Below are positions 11,991 to 21,749 of a DNA stretch of 64,000 nt, piece after piece. The position numbers and the translations under genes are program-made. The notes under the pieces were generated by a model. It ran no database searches. It worked only from the letters and a program-made list of their open reading frames with translations, and was not told where the DNA came from. Within the stretch, counting starts at the first letter, position 1. Each line of letters starts with the position of its first letter. This DNA comes from Gallionellaceae bacterium (lineage in GTDB: Bacteria; Pseudomonadota; Gammaproteobacteria; Burkholderiales; Gallionellaceae): assembly GCA_027448945.1 (NCBI GenBank), contig DAIDMQ010000009.1, positions 1 to 64,000 on the forward strand, given 5' to 3'.

Positions 11991-14852
11991 ATGCTACAAG
12001 CCTCTACCGACAGCGCTACGCCTACACAAATGCCCATCAGAAAAATGTCCGATTCAGTCATTTCATCAGCAACACCTTCTACACCACTCGATCAATATAA
12101 AGTGATACGCCGTAATGGTTCGGTTGTGTCCTTCGAGCCATCTAAGATCGCCGTCGCATTGACCAAGGCGTTCATCGCGGTAAGTGGTGCTCAAGGTGCA
12201 GCCTCTGCTCGTGTTCGTGAGTTGGTTGATCAACTGACAGCTGCGGTTGTGAATGCCATGCTGCGCCGCATGCCACACGGCGGCACGATGCATATCGAAG
12301 ATATCCAAGATCAGGTTGAGTTGGGACTGATGCGTTCGGGTGAGCACGATGTGGCGCGTGCCTATGTGCTGTACCGTGAAGAGCGTTCCCGCAGTCGTGC
12401 CAAATCCAAACATTTGGAGCCGGTACAAGTAATCAACGTGAAGCATGCCGATGGCCAGTTGTTGCCTTTGGATATTGAACGCCTTACTGCTGTGGTGACT
12501 TCTGCTTGTGTGGGTTTGGGTGATGTGGTCGATGCGGAAGCGGTAATCAAGCTGACGCTCAAAGATCTTTACGATGGCGTGCCTCAAGTTGAGGTCGATA
12601 AGTGTTTGATTATGTCGGCACGTTCTTTAATCGAGAAAGAGCCTTCTTATGATTTCGTGACTGCCCGTCTGTTGTTGAATAGTTTCTGCAGTGAAGTCTT
12701 GGGTGAAGAAGTCATACAGGCAGATATGTCCGCGCGTTACGCAGACTATTTCCCCAAGTACATCAAGCAAGCGGTCGCCGCTGAGCTGCTGGACGTGCGT
12801 TTGTCGCAGTTCGATCTACAACGTTTGGGTCAAGAGTTGGACGCACAGCGAGATCTTCAATTCGGCTATTTGGGCCTGCAAACGCTGTATGACAGATACT
12901 TCTTGCACATCAAACAGAAGCGGATCGAGTTGCCACAGGCATTCTTCATGCGCGTAGCGATGGGCTTGTCGCTGAATGAAATTGACAGGGAAGAGCGCGC
13001 AATCGAGTTTTATCGCCTGCTGTCCAGCTTCGATTTCATGAGCTCCACGCCGACTTTATTTAACTCTGGCACGCAACGTTCGCAATTATCTTCATGCTAT
13101 TTGACTACGGTGGCAGATGATTTGGATGGTATCTACGAGGCAATCAAGGAAAATGCACTGCTGGCGAAATTTGCAGGCGGTCTGGGTAACGATTGGACAC
13201 CCGTTCGTGCTTTGGGCGCGCACATCAAGGGCACCAATGGTGAATCGCAGGGTGTCGTTCCCTTCCTTAAGGTCGTGAACGATACGGCTGTCGCGGTGAA
13301 CCAAGGCGGCAAACGTAAAGGCGCAGTTTGTGCATATTTGGAAACATGGCATCTGGATATAGAGGAATTCCTCGATCTGCGCAAAAACACGGGTGACGAT
13401 CGCCGCCGTACTCACGACATGAATACAGCGAACTGGATCCCTGATCTGTTTATGAAGCGGGTCATGGAAGGCGGTGAATGGACACTGTTCTCCCCTAATG
13501 ATGCGATTGATTTGCACGACAAGTTTGGCGCGGATTTTGAGCGGGCCTATGTGGCATATGAGGCCAAGACTGTAAGTGGTGAGCTGAAGTTGTTTAAGCG
13601 CGTTCAAGCAGCGGGATTGTGGCGCAAGATACTTACTATGTTGTTCGAAACCGGTCACCCATGGATCACTTTCAAAGATCCTTGCAATATCCGTTCGCCT
13701 CAGCAGCATGTAGGCGTTGTCCATAGTTCCAACCTGTGTACCGAAATCACCCTCAATACCAATGAAAGTGAGATTGCGGTCTGCAATCTGGGCTCGGTTA
13801 ATCTGGCGGCCCATTTGTATCCTCGCGGCCATGAGAAGTTCGGTCAGTTGGATCATGAAAAGTTGCGTCACACCATCAATACTGCGATGCGCATGCTGGA
13901 TAACGTCATCGATATCAATTACTACGCTGTTCCTAAGGCGCGCAACTCAAATTTGAAGCACCGCCCGGTCGGTATGGGCATCATGGGCTTTCAGGATTGT
14001 TTGCATGAATTGCGCATTCCTTACTCTTCGCAAGAGGCTGTGGAGTTCGCGGATCGTTCCATGGAGGCTGTGTGCTATTTCGCTTACTGGGCTTCTACAG
14101 AATTGGCCGAGCAACGTGGTCGATATGCAAGCTATCGCGGCAGTCTGTGGGATAGAGGGATATTGCCTCAAGATACATTAGATATGTTGCGTGCAGAACG
14201 TGGCGGCTATGTGGAGGTGGATACCTCGGTGAGTATGGATTGGGATGCCTTGCGTTCCCGCATCAAGCAATTCGGTATGCGTAACTCCAATTGTGTGGCG
14301 ATTGCGCCAACCGCGACCATCTCCAACATCATCGGAGTGTCCGCATGCATCGAACCTACCTACCAGAACATTTTTGTGAAATCGAATCTGTCGGGTGAGT
14401 TTACGGTGATGAACGAACACTTGGTTAGGGATTTGAAGCAACTGGGTCTTTGGGATGAAGTGATGATTGCCGATCTGAAGTACTTTGACGGCAGCTTGTC
14501 TAAGATTGATCGTATCCCGGCCGAATTGCGCACCCTGTATGCGACTGCATTTGAAGTCGAACCAAGCTGGTTGATCGAAGCGGCTTCGCGTCGTCAAAAG
14601 TGGATCGACCAAGCTCAGTCGTTGAACATCTACATGTCTGGTGTGTCGGGCCGCAAGCTAGATGAGACCTACAAGTTGGCTTGGTTGCGCGGCTTGAAGA
14701 CAACTTACTATCTGCGCACTTTGGGTGCGACTTCGGCAGAAAAATCGACAGGGAAAGCGGGTGCTTTGAATGCTGTTCCGAGCGACGGCGGTGTCGTGGA
14801 GGAGACTAAATTCTGCTCAATTGACAACCCTGAATGCGAAGCTTGCCAATAG
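11991..14852 (+). CDS. nrdA: Ribonucleoside-diphosphate reductase class Ia, alpha subunit
   Basis: The 953-residue large subunit makes deoxyribonucleotides with NrdB. Two consecutive ATP-cone-like domains occupy about residues 35-135 and 145-240, the second in the segment starting VINVKHADGQ. The catalytic core shows SSCYLTT (redox Cys), SNLCTEITL (radical Cys with Asn and Glu), AVCNLGSVNL (partner Cys) and a Tyr pair in TTYYLRTLGA for radical transfer. The C-terminus ends in CEAC, the CxxC that exchanges with thioredoxin. It is longer than E. coli NrdA (761) because of the extra N-terminal domain. GGGAGAA precedes the ATG; NrdR boxes lie upstream. Confidence 0.95.
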   Translation: MLQASTDSATPTQMPIRKMSDSVISSATPSTPLDQYKVIRRNGSVVSFEPSKIAVALTKAFIAVSGAQGAASARVRELVDQLTAAVVNAMLRRMPHGGTMHIEDIQDQVELGLMRSGEHDVARAYVLYREERSRSRAKSKHLEPVQVINVKHADGQLLPLDIERLTAVVTSACVGLGDVVDAEAVIKLTLKDLYDGVPQVEVDKCLIMSARSLIEKEPSYDFVTARLLLNSFCSEVLGEEVIQADMSARYADYFPKYIKQAVAAELLDVRLSQFDLQRLGQELDAQRDLQFGYLGLQTLYDRYFLHIKQKRIELPQAFFMRVAMGLSLNEIDREERAIEFYRLLSSFDFMSSTPTLFNSGTQRSQLSSCYLTTVADDLDGIYEAIKENALLAKFAGGLGNDWTPVRALGAHIKGTNGESQGVVPFLKVVNDTAVAVNQGGKRKGAVCAYLETWHLDIEEFLDLRKNTGDDRRRTHDMNTANWIPDLFMKRVMEGGEWTLFSPNDAIDLHDKFGADFERAYVAYEAKTVSGELKLFKRVQAAGLWRKILTMLFETGHPWITFKDPCNIRSPQQHVGVVHSSNLCTEITLNTNESEIAVCNLGSVNLAAHLYPRGHEKFGQLDHEKLRHTINTAMRMLDNVIDINYYAVPKARNSNLKHRPVGMGIMGFQDCLHELRIPYSSQEAVEFADRSMEAVCYFAYWASTELAEQRGRYASYRGSLWDRGILPQDTLDMLRAERGGYVEVDTSVSMDWDALRSRIKQFGMRNSNCVAIAPTATISNIIGVSACIEPTYQNIFVKSNLSGEFTVMNEHLVRDLKQLGLWDEVMIADLKYFDGSLSKIDRIPAELRTLYATAFEVEPSWLIEAASRRQKWIDQAQSLNIYMSGVSGRKLDETYKLAWLRGLKTTYYLRTLGATSAEKSTGKAGALNAVPSDGGVVEETKFCSIDNPECEACQ

Positions 14853-14930: not shown

Positions 14931-16097
14931 ATGTTGACTTTTGATGAAGAAATTAAACCTAACGCTTCAGCTTTAGGTATGATGCGCACATCGACGATAG
15001 ACGATGTTCCGGGGATGCAATTACAACAAGCAAGAGTGACAGCAAGCATAATCCCACCGACACCCGAAAAGACAGTGTCTACCGGACGTATTCGCGTCGA
15101 AGATAAACGCATTATCAATTGCAACGCCGACGTGAATCAGTTGGTGCCTTTCAAATATAAATGGGCTTGGGAAAAATATCTTTCTGCGTGCGCGAATCAT
15201 TGGATGCCGCAAGAAGTGAATATGACTGCCGACATCGCGCTTTGGAAGAGTGACAAGCTCAGCGACGATGAGCGTCGTCTGATCAAGCGTAATCTGGGCT
15301 TCTTTACGACAGCAGATAGTCTTGCTGCCAACAACATCGTACTGGGTACTTATCGCCACATCAGCAATCCGGAATGCCGCCAGTTTCTGTTGCGCCAAGC
15401 TTTCGAAGAAGCGATTCACACACACGCATACCAATACATCGTTGAGAGTCTCGGCCTGGATGATGGCGAGATATTCAATATGTATCACGAAGTGGATAGT
15501 ATCCGTGCCAAAGACGAGTTCTTGCTTCCCTTCATTGATGTACTTACTAATCCAGCCTTTAAAACAGGTACGCCGCAAGCAGATCAAGCATTGTTGCGTA
15601 GTCTGATTGTGTTCGCTTGCATTATGGAAGGCCTGTTCTTCTATGTTGGTTTTGTTCAGATACTGGCTTTGGGTCGTCAGAATAAGATGACTGGCGCCGC
15701 AGAACAGTATCAATATATTTTGCGTGATGAATCTATGCACTTGAATTTTGGTGTGGACGTTATTAATCAGATCAAGATGGAAAATCCGCATCTGTGGACT
15801 TCGGAGTTCCGTGAAGAGATACGCGTTCTGTTCCAAAAAGGTGTGGAGCTGGAATATGCATATGCCGAAGATACGATGCCACGCGGAGTGTTGGGTCTGA
15901 ATGCAACGATGTTCAAAGAATATTTGCGCTTCATTGCCAATCGTCGTTGTCAACAAATCGGTGTCGACATCCTTTACCCGGGAGCGACTAATCCTTTCCC
16001 ATGGATGGCAGAGATGATCGATCTGAAAAAGGAAAAAAACTTCTTTGAGACACGTGTCACTGAATATCAAACAGGTGGCGCATTGTCTTGGGATTAA
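14931..16097 (+). CDS. nrdB: Ribonucleoside-diphosphate reductase class Ia, beta subunit
   Basis: The 388-residue radical subunit has the di-iron ligands and the radical Tyr: Asp in TADSLAANN, Glu, His and Tyr in [13 protein letters not shown], Glu in [10 protein letters not shown], and Glu plus His in RDESMHLNF. The tyrosine is present, so this is a Tyr-radical class Ia type rather than class Ic. A strong ribosome site (AGGAGG) precedes the ATG. The 78-bp gap to nrdA has only a weak hairpin, so the two genes are probably one operon under NrdR. A small perfect hairpin (CATAAGC/GCTTATG at 16099-16115) follows without a T run. Confidence 0.95.
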
Positions 16098-16783: not shown

Positions 16784-17359
16784 CTAAATATGATGTTTCA
16801 GTGCCACGCTATATAGCGTAATTGGTGCCGCGCTATTTTTGTCTAGTGCAATTCCTGCTTCTACTCCCGCCATCGCTATAACCGTCGAATCATCGAATTG
16901 ACTGTACGCCAGATGTAATGCGCCTAGGGAGAATTCGTGCCCAGAGCCTATCGCCCAATATTGCGTGTACTCGAATACTTCGCGCATGGAATAAATGCCA
17001 AATATGCCGGATTGATTTGCAATCAGTGCGGTGATCTGACTGGATTCATATGGATCTTCCTCGTCTTCTTTGGGATTAAGAAAACACTCTTCTTTGAGTA
17101 CGGGGTGTAGTTTGCGAAACGTTTCGTAAATCTCGGCCTTGCTGTTAAGCTTCACATCAGGTGTCTTGGCCAAAAGATTGGCCAGTACCAAGTGATGGGC
17201 CGCACTGCCACACACGCCGACATAGCTTTCTCCGATGTGCAATATCTTGTCGTGAGAGGCATCAAGATGAGAAGGTAAGCGGGTGTTGCCAAAGGTGGTC
17301 AGTGTATCTGCGGCAATAGTGGCGATACCATGCTTTCTGACAGCGACGATCGTGGTCAT
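16784..17359 (-). CDS. Proteasome-like Ntn hydrolase (BPH/HslV-related)
   Basis: The 191-residue protein opens MTTIVAVRKHGIATIAADT, which is close to the HslV start. Removal of Met exposes Thr as the catalytic nucleophile, and a Lys in SHDKILHIG matches the conserved active-site Lys near position 33. It differs from HslV in the rest of the chain, and no hslU partner is adjacent. This matches the betaproteobacterial proteasome homologue (BPH) family, known as double-ring peptidases without a firmly assigned unfoldase. Its natural substrate is not evident from the neighbourhood; pabB is divergent. Confidence 0.75.
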   Translation of the reverse strand: MTTIVAVRKHGIATIAADTLTTFGNTRLPSHLDASHDKILHIGESYVGVCGSAAHHLVLANLLAKTPDVKLNSKAEIYETFRKLHPVLKEECFLNPKEDEEDPYESSQITALIANQSGIFGIYSMREVFEYTQYWAIGSGHEFSLGALHLAYSQFDDSTVIAMAGVEAGIALDKNSAAPITLYSVALKHHI

Positions 17360-17424: not shown

Positions 17425-18762
17425 TTGAGCTTCTTTAGTCTAGAATTACCTTACGTTCGTGATGCGTCACGATATTTTTCTCCACTACGCGATATGCATG
17501 GTGCAATCTGGTTGGATAGCGGCAACCTGTCTCGCTACGACATCATCAGCGCCTCTCCTCAACATTCACTTAAGATCAGTGACGCGAAAGTAGATCCTTT
17601 TGTTTGGCTGCGAGATATATTGGGTGTGTCCATTCCTCCGGTCGCAGATGTACCATTCGCAGGAGGAGCATTGGGTTACTGGAGCTACGAACTTGCTAGA
17701 AACCAAATGAATCTGCCTGAAGGGCATAGTCAATTTGACAGCATTCCATTGATGTACATGGGTATCTATGATTGGGCATTGCTAATAGACCATGAAACTA
17801 AACGAGCTCGCTTGGTCTCGCACAAAAGATATGCGGAAACCGATCAGAAGCTCGTGGAAGTCCAATCCCGACTAAAACATGGGACCCCATCTCCTCCAAG
17901 CGCCTTCAGTTTGAAGAGCGATGTGGTATCCAACTTTAGTCGTGCAAGCTATCAAGGCGCATATGAGCAAATACAGCAGTATCTGTGGGCGGGTGATTGT
18001 TATCAGATCAATTTGGCGCAATGCTTTAGTGCTGCGGTGAGTGGTGATGCGTTCGGGGCATATCAGAAGTTACGGGAGCTAAGTCCTGCACCCTATTCTG
18101 CTTTTATGGATATTGATGATGTGCAGGTTTTGTGTGCTTCACCAGAACGTTTTCTTAGTGTGGTCAATGGTGAAGTCGAAACTAAGCCTATCAAAGGTAC
18201 TCGTCCGCGCAGCGCGAATGCGGTGCAAGATAAGGCAAACGCTGTTGACTTGGCCGGGCATCCCAAAGATAGAGCGGAAAACTTGATGATAGTAGACTTG
18301 CTGCGAAATGATTTGGGTAAGAGTTGCGAGCCTGGTTCGGTAAGTGTGCCGAGTTTATTTGCAGTTGAGAGCTATGCCAATGTCCATCATCTGGTGAGCA
18401 CCGTGCGAGGTAAGTTGGCGCCCGGGTGTGATGCCATAGATGTTTTGCAAGATTGTTTTCCTGGCGGTTCAATCACGGGTGCTCCCAAGAAACGCGCCAT
18501 GGAGATCATCGATCAGTTGGAACCAGATAGGCGCGGCATTTATTGCGGGGTGATTGGTTATATAGGCTTTGATGGCAATATGGATACCAATATCGTGATT
18601 CGTACTATGGTGTGTTGTGCCGGCGAGATACGCTGTTGGGCGGGTGGGGGCATTGTGGCAGATTCGCTATGTGCGGAGGAGTATCAAGAAACTTTAGATA
18701 AAGCATCTGTGATGCTTGCGGTGCTGGCACATTTTGGCGGGAAATTTTCTGCACAAAATTGA
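17425..18762 (+). CDS. pabB: Aminodeoxychorismate synthase component I
   Basis: This 445-residue chorismate-binding enzyme makes 4-amino-4-deoxychorismate for folate synthesis with an amidotransferase subunit (PabA/TrpG) encoded elsewhere. The PIKGTRPR motif contains the Lys that marks PabB rather than TrpE. GDCYQINLAQ, HPKDRAENLMIVDLLRND, GGSITGAPKKRAMEII and AGGGIVADS are family motifs. The start is TTG at 17425, the first usable codon after an in-frame stop, with no clear ribosome site. The 3' end runs close to that of convergent spoT with no terminator between. Confidence 0.9.
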   Translation: MSFFSLELPYVRDASRYFSPLRDMHGAIWLDSGNLSRYDIISASPQHSLKISDAKVDPFVWLRDILGVSIPPVADVPFAGGALGYWSYELARNQMNLPEGHSQFDSIPLMYMGIYDWALLIDHETKRARLVSHKRYAETDQKLVEVQSRLKHGTPSPPSAFSLKSDVVSNFSRASYQGAYEQIQQYLWAGDCYQINLAQCFSAAVSGDAFGAYQKLRELSPAPYSAFMDIDDVQVLCASPERFLSVVNGEVETKPIKGTRPRSANAVQDKANAVDLAGHPKDRAENLMIVDLLRNDLGKSCEPGSVSVPSLFAVESYANVHHLVSTVRGKLAPGCDAIDVLQDCFPGGSITGAPKKRAMEIIDQLEPDRRGIYCGVIGYIGFDGNMDTNIVIRTMVCCAGEIRCWAGGGIVADSLCAEEYQETLDKASVMLAVLAHFGGKFSAQN

Positions 18763-18786: not shown

Positions 18787-20898
18787 CTATACGCTGTTCT
18801 TGACCCGTATGATGCGTACCACCTCGGGTATTCTGCGCAAGCTGCGCATCACGCGGGCCAGATGCAATCTGTGGCTGACTTCAAGTGTGAAATAGAGTGC
18901 AGTGTACTCACCCTCGTTGTTGAAGTTGATGTTCTCGATGTTGGACTCCGCATCAGAGATCGCCGCAGCGACCTTGGCCAGCACACCACGTTGGTTGGAA
19001 ACCAGTAACTTGATACTCACCACGAAGGTGCGGTTGATATTTTTGTCCCAAGCTACATCCAACCATTGTTCACCACTGCGCCCACGCCGCAATGAAGTGC
19101 AGTCGTGAGTGTGCACTATTAGTCCCTGACCACTTTTGATGACGCCTATGATAGGGTCGCCCGGGATAGGGCGACAGCACTTGGCGAACTGTATCGCCAT
19201 GCCCTCAGTACCTTGTATAGTAATGACTGATGCCACGGGGGCTTCACCATTCTGTGCGTCATTGACTTGAGCCAATTGACGGGCGACCACCATATTCAAT
19301 CTGCGTCCCAAGCCTATATCGGCAAGCAAGTCTTGTTTGCTCTTGATGCCGGTATCGCGCAACAGCTTTTGCCATTGAGTCTCTTCTATGTCCTGTAATC
19401 GCAACCCCAAGGAATGGAATGCCTGACTTAGCAGTCTCTCGCCCAACTGGGATGACTCACCAGACTGCTGAACCTTCAAGAAATGGCGTATATGGCTACG
19501 CGCTTTGCTAGTCGTGACGTAGCCCAGCCAAGCCGGATTGGGTTTTGCGTGTGCAGCGGTGATGATCTCTACACGATCACCGTTTTTCAGCTCGCTACGT
19601 AAGGGGACTAGTTCAAAATTGACTTTCACCGCAACGCAACGGTTACCAATGTCCGTGTGTACGTTGTAAGCGAAGTCAACCGCAGTCGATCCTCTGGGTA
19701 ATGACATGATCTTGCCTTTGGGGGTGAATACATAGACTTCATCCGGGAAGAGGTCGACTTTGAGGTGTTCTAAGAATTCCGCCGAGTCACTACTTTGACT
19801 CAAGCTTTCCAATAGATCCTGTAGCCACTGATGTGTCTTCTGGTGCAGGTCGTTGATGCTATCGTGACCACTTTTGTATAACCAATGTGAGGCGACACCA
19901 GCGTCGGCAATCTTGTGCATTTCATGTGTACGTATCTGTATCTCTATGGGCGTGCCAAAGGGGCCGAACAGCGTGGTGTGGAGCGATTGGTAACCATTCA
20001 CTTTGGGAATGGCGATGTAGTCTTTGAATTTTCCTGGTATTGGTTTGTACAAACCATGCAATGCGCCCAAGGTGATATAGCAAGAATCTATGTCTTCTAC
20101 CAATACACGAAAGCCATAGATATCCAGTACTTCGGCAAATGCCAATGACTTGCTTTGCATCTTTTTGTAGATACTAAAAATATCCTTTTCACGTCCGGTG
20201 ACGTCAGCAAGGATATGTTGCTCGGCCAAGCGTCTCTGCACGGAATCCAATATCTTGTTGACGACCTCGCGGCGATTACCGCGCGCGACCTTGAGCGCCT
20301 TGCTGAGTACCGAATAGCGGTTCGGATGTAGATATTTGAAGCTCAATTCCTGCAGTTCATGATGAAAATCATTTAGTCCAAGACGATTTGCAATGGGGGC
20401 GTAGATATCCATCGTCTCCTTGGCAATACGCGCACACTTTTCGGGAGCCATCGCACCCAAGGTGCGCATATTGTGGAGGCGATCGGCCAGCTTGATCAGA
20501 ATGACGCGTACATCGCGAGCCATCGCCAACAGCATCTTGCGAAAGTTCTCGGCTTGCGCATCTTCGCGCGTCTCGAATTGGATTTTGTCCAGCTTGCTCA
20601 AGCCCTCGACCAGTTCGGCAACGGGGGTGCCGTAGCGCTCTGCGACTTGTGCTGCCGTGATAGGTGTATCTTCGATTACATCATGCAGTAAGGCTGCAAT
20701 GATGGCTTGTACGTCTAGGTGTAGCGGGGTGAGGATGCGTGCTACTGCGATGGGGTGTGTTACATAGGGGTCGCCGGAATGGCGCATCTGACCTTCATGC
20801 GCTAACCGGCTGAATTCAATGGCATCGCGGATGTACTCGACATCCTGTGTTTTGAGGTAAGTGGATACTTCCTCTAGGAGTCTTTCTGCGTCCGCCAT
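18787..20898 (-). CDS. spoT: Bifunctional (p)ppGpp synthetase/hydrolase
   Basis: The 703-residue Rel/Spo homologue has an intact HD hydrolase domain (HPIAVARIL, LLHDVIEDT, LADRLHNMRTL; residues 25-200), a synthetase domain (YGFRVLVEDI, YQSLHTTLFG; about 230-345), a TGS domain (VFTPKGKIMSLPRGST) and a C-terminal ACT domain. The intact HD motif separates it from hydrolase-dead RelA. It sets alarmone levels that link starvation to transcription. It is the last gene of the yicC-gmk-rpoZ-spoT group, an order shared with enterobacteria for gmk-rpoZ-spoT. Confidence 0.93.
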   Translation of the reverse strand: MADAERLLEEVSTYLKTQDVEYIRDAIEFSRLAHEGQMRHSGDPYVTHPIAVARILTPLHLDVQAIIAALLHDVIEDTPITAAQVAERYGTPVAELVEGLSKLDKIQFETREDAQAENFRKMLLAMARDVRVILIKLADRLHNMRTLGAMAPEKCARIAKETMDIYAPIANRLGLNDFHHELQELSFKYLHPNRYSVLSKALKVARGNRREVVNKILDSVQRRLAEQHILADVTGREKDIFSIYKKMQSKSLAFAEVLDIYGFRVLVEDIDSCYITLGALHGLYKPIPGKFKDYIAIPKVNGYQSLHTTLFGPFGTPIEIQIRTHEMHKIADAGVASHWLYKSGHDSINDLHQKTHQWLQDLLESLSQSSDSAEFLEHLKVDLFPDEVYVFTPKGKIMSLPRGSTAVDFAYNVHTDIGNRCVAVKVNFELVPLRSELKNGDRVEIITAAHAKPNPAWLGYVTTSKARSHIRHFLKVQQSGESSQLGERLLSQAFHSLGLRLQDIEETQWQKLLRDTGIKSKQDLLADIGLGRRLNMVVARQLAQVNDAQNGEAPVASVITIQGTEGMAIQFAKCCRPIPGDPIIGVIKSGQGLIVHTHDCTSLRRGRSGEQWLDVAWDKNINRTFVVSIKLLVSNQRGVLAKVAAAISDAESNIENINFNNEGEYTALYFTLEVSHRLHLARVMRSLRRIPEVVRIIRVKNSV

Positions 20899-21131: not shown

Positions 21132-21749
21132 TTACTCCGGTTTTTGCAATTGATTGATAAGGGATTCATAACGGGACAGCTGTTTTGCGCAAGTCAGTTT
21201 TGCGCTTAATACAACCGCATTTAACTCACGCAATGCCTCGTTAAGATTGTCGTTGATGATAACATAATCGAATTCGGCTACATGCGCGACGTCATCACGT
21301 GCCGCAGCTATGCGGCGGGCGATTACATCAGCATGGTCGGTGCCGCGCCCAGTCAGCCTTTGTCTGAGCGCTGCTAGAGAAGGTGGCAGGATGAAGATGC
21401 TGATTGCACGTGGAAATTGTGTGCGTACCTGCTGTGCACCTTGCCAGTCTATTTCCAACAGGATGTCCCTGCCCTTGGCATTTTCTTGTTCGATCCAGGT
21501 CTGGGATGTGCCGTAATAATTGCTATATACCTCCGCACTTTCCAAAAACTCTCCGCGTTTCTGCATCTCGATGAAATTTTCACGACTGATGAAGTGATAA
21601 TCCTTGCCATCCACCTCTCCCTTGCGCGCTGCGCGTGTCGTGTAAGACACAGACAAGTCAATCTGCGGATTGATGTTAAGCAGCGCGTGAACCAGGCTGG
21701 TCTTGCCTGCACCGGACGGTGCGCTGATGATGAATAGATTTCCTGACAT
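21132..21749 (-). CDS. gmk: Guanylate kinase
   Basis: The 205-residue protein phosphorylates GMP to GDP. It shows the P-loop SAPSGAGKTSL, the GMP-binding segment SYTTRAARKGEVDGKDYHF and LLEIDWQGAQQVR, all at family positions. It lies in the yicC-gmk-rpoZ-spoT group and starts 89 bp downstream of yicC. The link with spoT is logical, since (p)ppGpp is made from guanine nucleotides and inhibits this enzyme in several bacteria. Confidence 0.95.
   Translation of the reverse strand: MSGNLFIISAPSGAGKTSLVHALLNINPQIDLSVSYTTRAARKGEVDGKDYHFISRENFIEMQKRGEFLESAEVYSNYYGTSQTWIEQENAKGRDILLEIDWQGAQQVRTQFPRAISIFILPPSLAALRQRLTGRGTDHADVIARRIAAARDDVAHVAEFDYVIINDNLNEALRELNAVVLSAKLTCAKQLSRYESLINQLQKPE

Follow-up and report, generated by a model that had tools for sequence, protein, structure and literature searches.

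Betaproteobacteria proteasome homologs (BPHs) descend from HslV and assemble into a double ring of 14 subunits with the active sites inside; in the Thiobacillus denitrificans enzyme, epoxomicin is bound to Thr1 (PMC5777263). Purified BPHs are inert on all standard peptides and on casein, and pull-downs with the Cupriavidus metallidurans protein, with or without nucleotide, recovered neither HslU nor any other partner (PMC5777263). Published contexts of the gene are a pyruvate dehydrogenase operon, Hsp33 and argG, and in Sideroxydans lithotrophicus BPH is the only member of the proteasome family (PMC5777263). This species therefore has no HslV.

The window analysed here is a stretch of 64,000 nucleotides from a Gallionellaceae bacterium (contig DAIDMQ010000009.1 of assembly GCA_027448945.1). 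Its host, an iron-oxidising bacterium, is probably Gallionella-like. The window encodes a true BPH, in a genome devoid of both HslV and HslU. Sequence, phylogeny and fold all place the protein with BPH and outside HslV, in agreement with the original prediction of a stand-alone peptidase of BPH type.

The open reading frame starts with ATG and fills exactly the span listed in Table 1. Its translation opens with MTT, so that Thr becomes residue 1 once Met is removed. The ORF exceeds the Pfam Proteasome cut-off (28.4 versus 22.4 bits), and it is not a chance ORF, given its orthologs of 74-89% identity in 26 other Gallionellaceae genomes. From nrdA to gmk, the inspected neighbours comprise nrdA and nrdB, a histone H1-like ORF, pabB and spoT/relA; as had been predicted, no gene for HslU or another unfoldase is adjacent. 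The H1/HC2-like ORF scores below curated cut-offs, and its length is apparently variable across relatives.

Table 1. The BPH gene, its pore-loop codons and its neighbourhood, in window coordinates.
Feature	Position	Strand	Remarks
nrdA	11991-14852		neighbour of BPH
nrdB	14931-16097		neighbour of BPH
Lys/Ala/Pro-rich histone H1/HC2-like ORF, 104 aa	16304-16618	+	between nrdB and BPH
BPH, 191 aa	16784-17359	-	ORF call, profile, alignment, tree and fold; all catalytic residues present
Codons of acidic pore loop PKEDEEDPY (encoded residues 96-104)	17048-17074	-	alignment; coordinates computed from the ORF
Divergent BPH-pabB intergenic region, 65 bp between start codons	17360-17424	.	upstream alignment and scan
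pabB (aminodeoxychorismate synthase component I)	17425-18762	+	TTG start; divergent from BPH
SpoT/RelA protein (spoT/relA)	18787-20898		neighbourhood of BPH
Guanylate kinase (gmk)	21132-21749		neighbourhood of BPH

Among the sequences of solved structures, the best match is C. metallidurans BPH (5ovu; residues 2-187, E 8.7e-54), followed by T. denitrificans BPH (5ovs; E 7.9e-36); no HslV chain scores better than E 0.034. A phylogeny with HslV, Anbu and BPH had been proposed as a check. In our maximum-likelihood tree of 69 rows (46 BPH, 15 HslV and 8 Anbu), each group lies on one side of a branch, with support of 87/94 for BPH, 100/99 for HslV and 100/100 for Anbu; support for the split between BPH and HslV is thus good on the BPH side, though short of the maximum. 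The query falls inside BPH, among 28 other Gallionellaceae BPHs, and not inside HslV with hslU elsewhere in the genome. Nor does it group with Anbu in the tree; the Anbu operon of this genome sits on another contig, with a different protein.

The Thr start and Lys that had been noted as HslV-like are both found in the alignment. The query carries Thr1 (encoded residue 2), Asp17, Lys37, Gly50 and the serine of the GSG motif, with no propeptide. Asp17, Lys37 and Gly50 are invariant in the 46 BPHs, and residue 1 is Thr in 45 of them and Ser in one. The alignment column marked Lys37 reads Arg in HslV, which we read as a local misalignment beside the conserved ARK motif of HslV and not as a difference in the catalytic Lys. 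The pore loop of the query contains five successive acidic residues (EDEED). Five such residues are also described for the C. metallidurans enzyme (PMC5777263). Across the 46 aligned BPHs the pore segment between H2 and S7 has 28 residues, on average 8 of them acidic, as against 11 residues and a single acidic one in HslV; by this alignment, the acidic loop is diagnostic of BPH versus HslV. An AlphaFold monomer model of the query has a mean pLDDT of 87, and its confidence drops in two places only, the pore loop and the C-terminal tail. Compared with solved structures, it retrieves 5ovs, 5ovt and 5ovu first (TM 0.85-0.90), then HslV (TM 0.60-0.73), then 20S subunits.

A search for hslVU elsewhere in the genome, which had also been suggested, found neither gene. 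The HslU model matches only relatives of ClpX, ClpA, ClpB and FtsH, with ClpX best; the match on contig C28 is ClpX itself, beside a ClpP-sized ORF and Lon, and was rejected as HslU. The sole match of the HslV model is the BPH gene, weakly. The absence of HslU extends to the whole family: it occurs in none of 99 Gallionellaceae genomes, each at least 90% complete, versus 32 of the 40 genomes taken from the order's other families. HslV follows the same pattern, with 33 of 101 in the set of relatives and none in the genus. A single loss of HslU, close to the base of Gallionellaceae and before their diversification, is the most likely history. HslU cannot, then, be the partner of BPH in this family, and since BPH is retained there, BPH cannot require it. 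In contrast, the sampled BPH carriers outside Gallionellaceae have HslU in 17 of 17 cases.

BPH is intact in 27 of the 99 genomes and decayed in three; one of the genomes counted as intact (G141) has a TAG near the end of the gene. The decayed copies are an interrupted and frameshifted gene in G109 (L110:8800-9633), a fragment with a stop in G007 (L084:8776-8889) and a C-terminal fragment in G139 (L221:1504-1739). They are direct evidence of repeated loss of BPH. The remnants in G109 and G007 adjoin pabB, the site of the intact gene. From this distribution and common position, BPH would have been ancestral beside pabB in Gallionellaceae and subsequently lost repeatedly.

The host genome encodes another proteasome homolog, Anbu, outside the window (contig C17, 5412-12098, locus L115). 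The Anbu gene lies in its customary operon, alongside those for Alpha-E, circularly permuted ATP-grasp and DUF2126/transglutaminase-like proteins. Among the 99 genomes, nine carry both BPH and Anbu, 18 BPH only, 26 Anbu only and 46 neither. The two occur independently (Fisher p = 1), and replacement of Anbu by BPH, or the reverse, is rejected. The original prediction called such peptidases rare; on the contrary, BPH is widespread in Betaproteobacteria, with at least 328 candidate loci. Phage and plasmid collections gave no match to BPH, and an origin from either was rejected. Separately, a distant proteasome-like protein (26% identity) is encoded on a 206-kb IMG/VR viral contig (L197:5001-5396); it may belong to the phage/host proteasome homologs (PPH) described in the literature.

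By automatic ORF calling, pabB is the immediate divergent neighbour of BPH in 23 of 28 Gallionellaceae loci. Three of the five exceptions have visible pabB or pabB-like sequence upstream, and two (L206 and L214) differ. Outside the family, frequent neighbours recognised by eye are lipoamide dehydrogenase-type and Hsp33-type genes, in agreement with the published contexts (PMC5777263), among which the divergent pabB arrangement is not given. The divergence from pabB, offered earlier as a lead on regulation, is thus a real synteny that does not extend beyond Gallionellaceae. In the upstream alignment of Gallionellaceae loci, a block GATAAT/TGATAAAAT is conserved some 20-30 nt ahead of the start of BPH and may be a -10 element. 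A consensus scan of the 65-bp gap found no full sigma-70 promoter, and we dropped that assignment.

We consider it probable that the query is a true BPH acting as a Thr1 double-ring protease without a dedicated AAA+ unfoldase, an accessory enzyme retained by selection. Removal of Met would expose the catalytic Thr1. By analogy with the crystal structures of homologs of 38-48% identity, the protein would assemble into a homo-tetradecamer of two rings with the active sites inside, and its entrance would be lined by long acidic pore loops. Peptides or unfolded proteins, its presumed substrates, could enter without a dedicated AAA+ unfoldase and be cleaved, independently of ATP. Present in about a third of Gallionellaceae species, BPH would be a non-essential accessory protease that has decayed in place in others. 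Given that purified BPHs are inert (PMC5777263), activity may depend on an activator. That partners and substrates are unclear, as had been remarked, holds for the published BPH field (PMC5777263) and is no peculiarity of this locus.

We give next to no credence to the reading that the query is a divergent HslV, with HslU elsewhere in the genome. Fold and N-terminal motif are common to both, and the HslV equivalog models do score weakly on the query, at 21.6-23.1 bits; these values lie far under the cut-offs of 137-158 bits (21.6 versus 157.75 for one model), the query stands in a separate clade with a long acidic pore loop, and genome and family are without HslU. HslV identity is already refuted by this last point and the tree. 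It is likewise very improbable that BPH is a relic without function that is being lost, as its absence from about 70% of Gallionellaceae genomes and the decayed copies in G007, G109 and G139 might suggest. Identity to the BPHs of six congeners is 82-89%, at a pN of 0.06-0.12 and a pS of 0.68-0.80, synonymous sites being saturated so that pN/pS is not convertible to a reliable dN/dS; full-length matches of the adjacent pabB across the genus are 57-65% identical. The low pN against saturated pS, together with an identity higher than that of pabB, indicates strong purifying selection on BPH where it is present, which refutes the relic reading for the copy in the window. Intact copies, moreover, are 74-89% identical and retain all catalytic residues.

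Partnership with a general AAA+ unfoldase in place of HslU, such as ClpX, ClpA or another, is unlikely. The genome does encode ClpX, ClpA, ClpB, Lon and FtsH, and the published BPHs are inert alone; against this, the C. metallidurans pull-downs gave no partner with or without nucleotide (PMC5777263), and no unfoldase gene recurs as a neighbour, either at this locus or in our neighbour survey.

The BPH family itself, with its origin from HslV and its lack of a partner, is already published, as is the sole-member status in S. lithotrophicus (PMC5777263), and our analysis extends this last, BPH-only case. We add the retention of BPH in a family that lacks HslU throughout, the contrast with the HslU-bearing carriers outside, the conserved divergent pabB context and the copies decayed in place. 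That a whole family keeps BPH without any HslU provides direct evidence, from genomes, against HslU as the obligate unfoldase of BPH. Gallionellaceae also offer natural BPH-plus and BPH-minus sister species, as well as BPH-only species, in which the role of BPH can be tested without redundancy from HslV. A larger reading, quite unlikely in our judgement, is that Gallionellaceae represent a BPH freed from coexistence with HslVU, through its early loss and a fixed pabB-divergent place, maybe with a substrate particular to this lineage or an ATPase newly gained as partner. We regard the new points as supporting details and not as a new system; the locus itself is an unremarkable representative of a family already described.

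Of the known systems, Anbu shares the proteasome-like N-terminal nucleophile fold and is encoded in the same genome, but belongs to another clade, has a split-ring architecture and lies in an operon of its own with Alpha-E, ATP-grasp and transglutaminase genes. HslV (ClpQ) has the Thr1 proteasome-like fold and a double ring of beta-like subunits; unlike the query, it forms a separate clade, lacks the long acidic pore loop and works with HslU, absent from this genome. S. lithotrophicus is also a member of Gallionellaceae, whereas the genome of the window has Anbu as well. BPH of T. denitrificans (5OVS, 5OVT) matches in active site and fold (TM 0.90), but is only about 38% identical, has an argG context and resembles the other BPH sub-branch, with TKWG instead of TTFG. 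BPH of C. metallidurans (5OVU) differs in sitting in the pyruvate dehydrogenase operon, the query being divergent from pabB in a genome without HslVU, but shares with it full-length homology at about 48% identity, Thr1, Asp17 and Lys37, the acidic pore loop and the fold.
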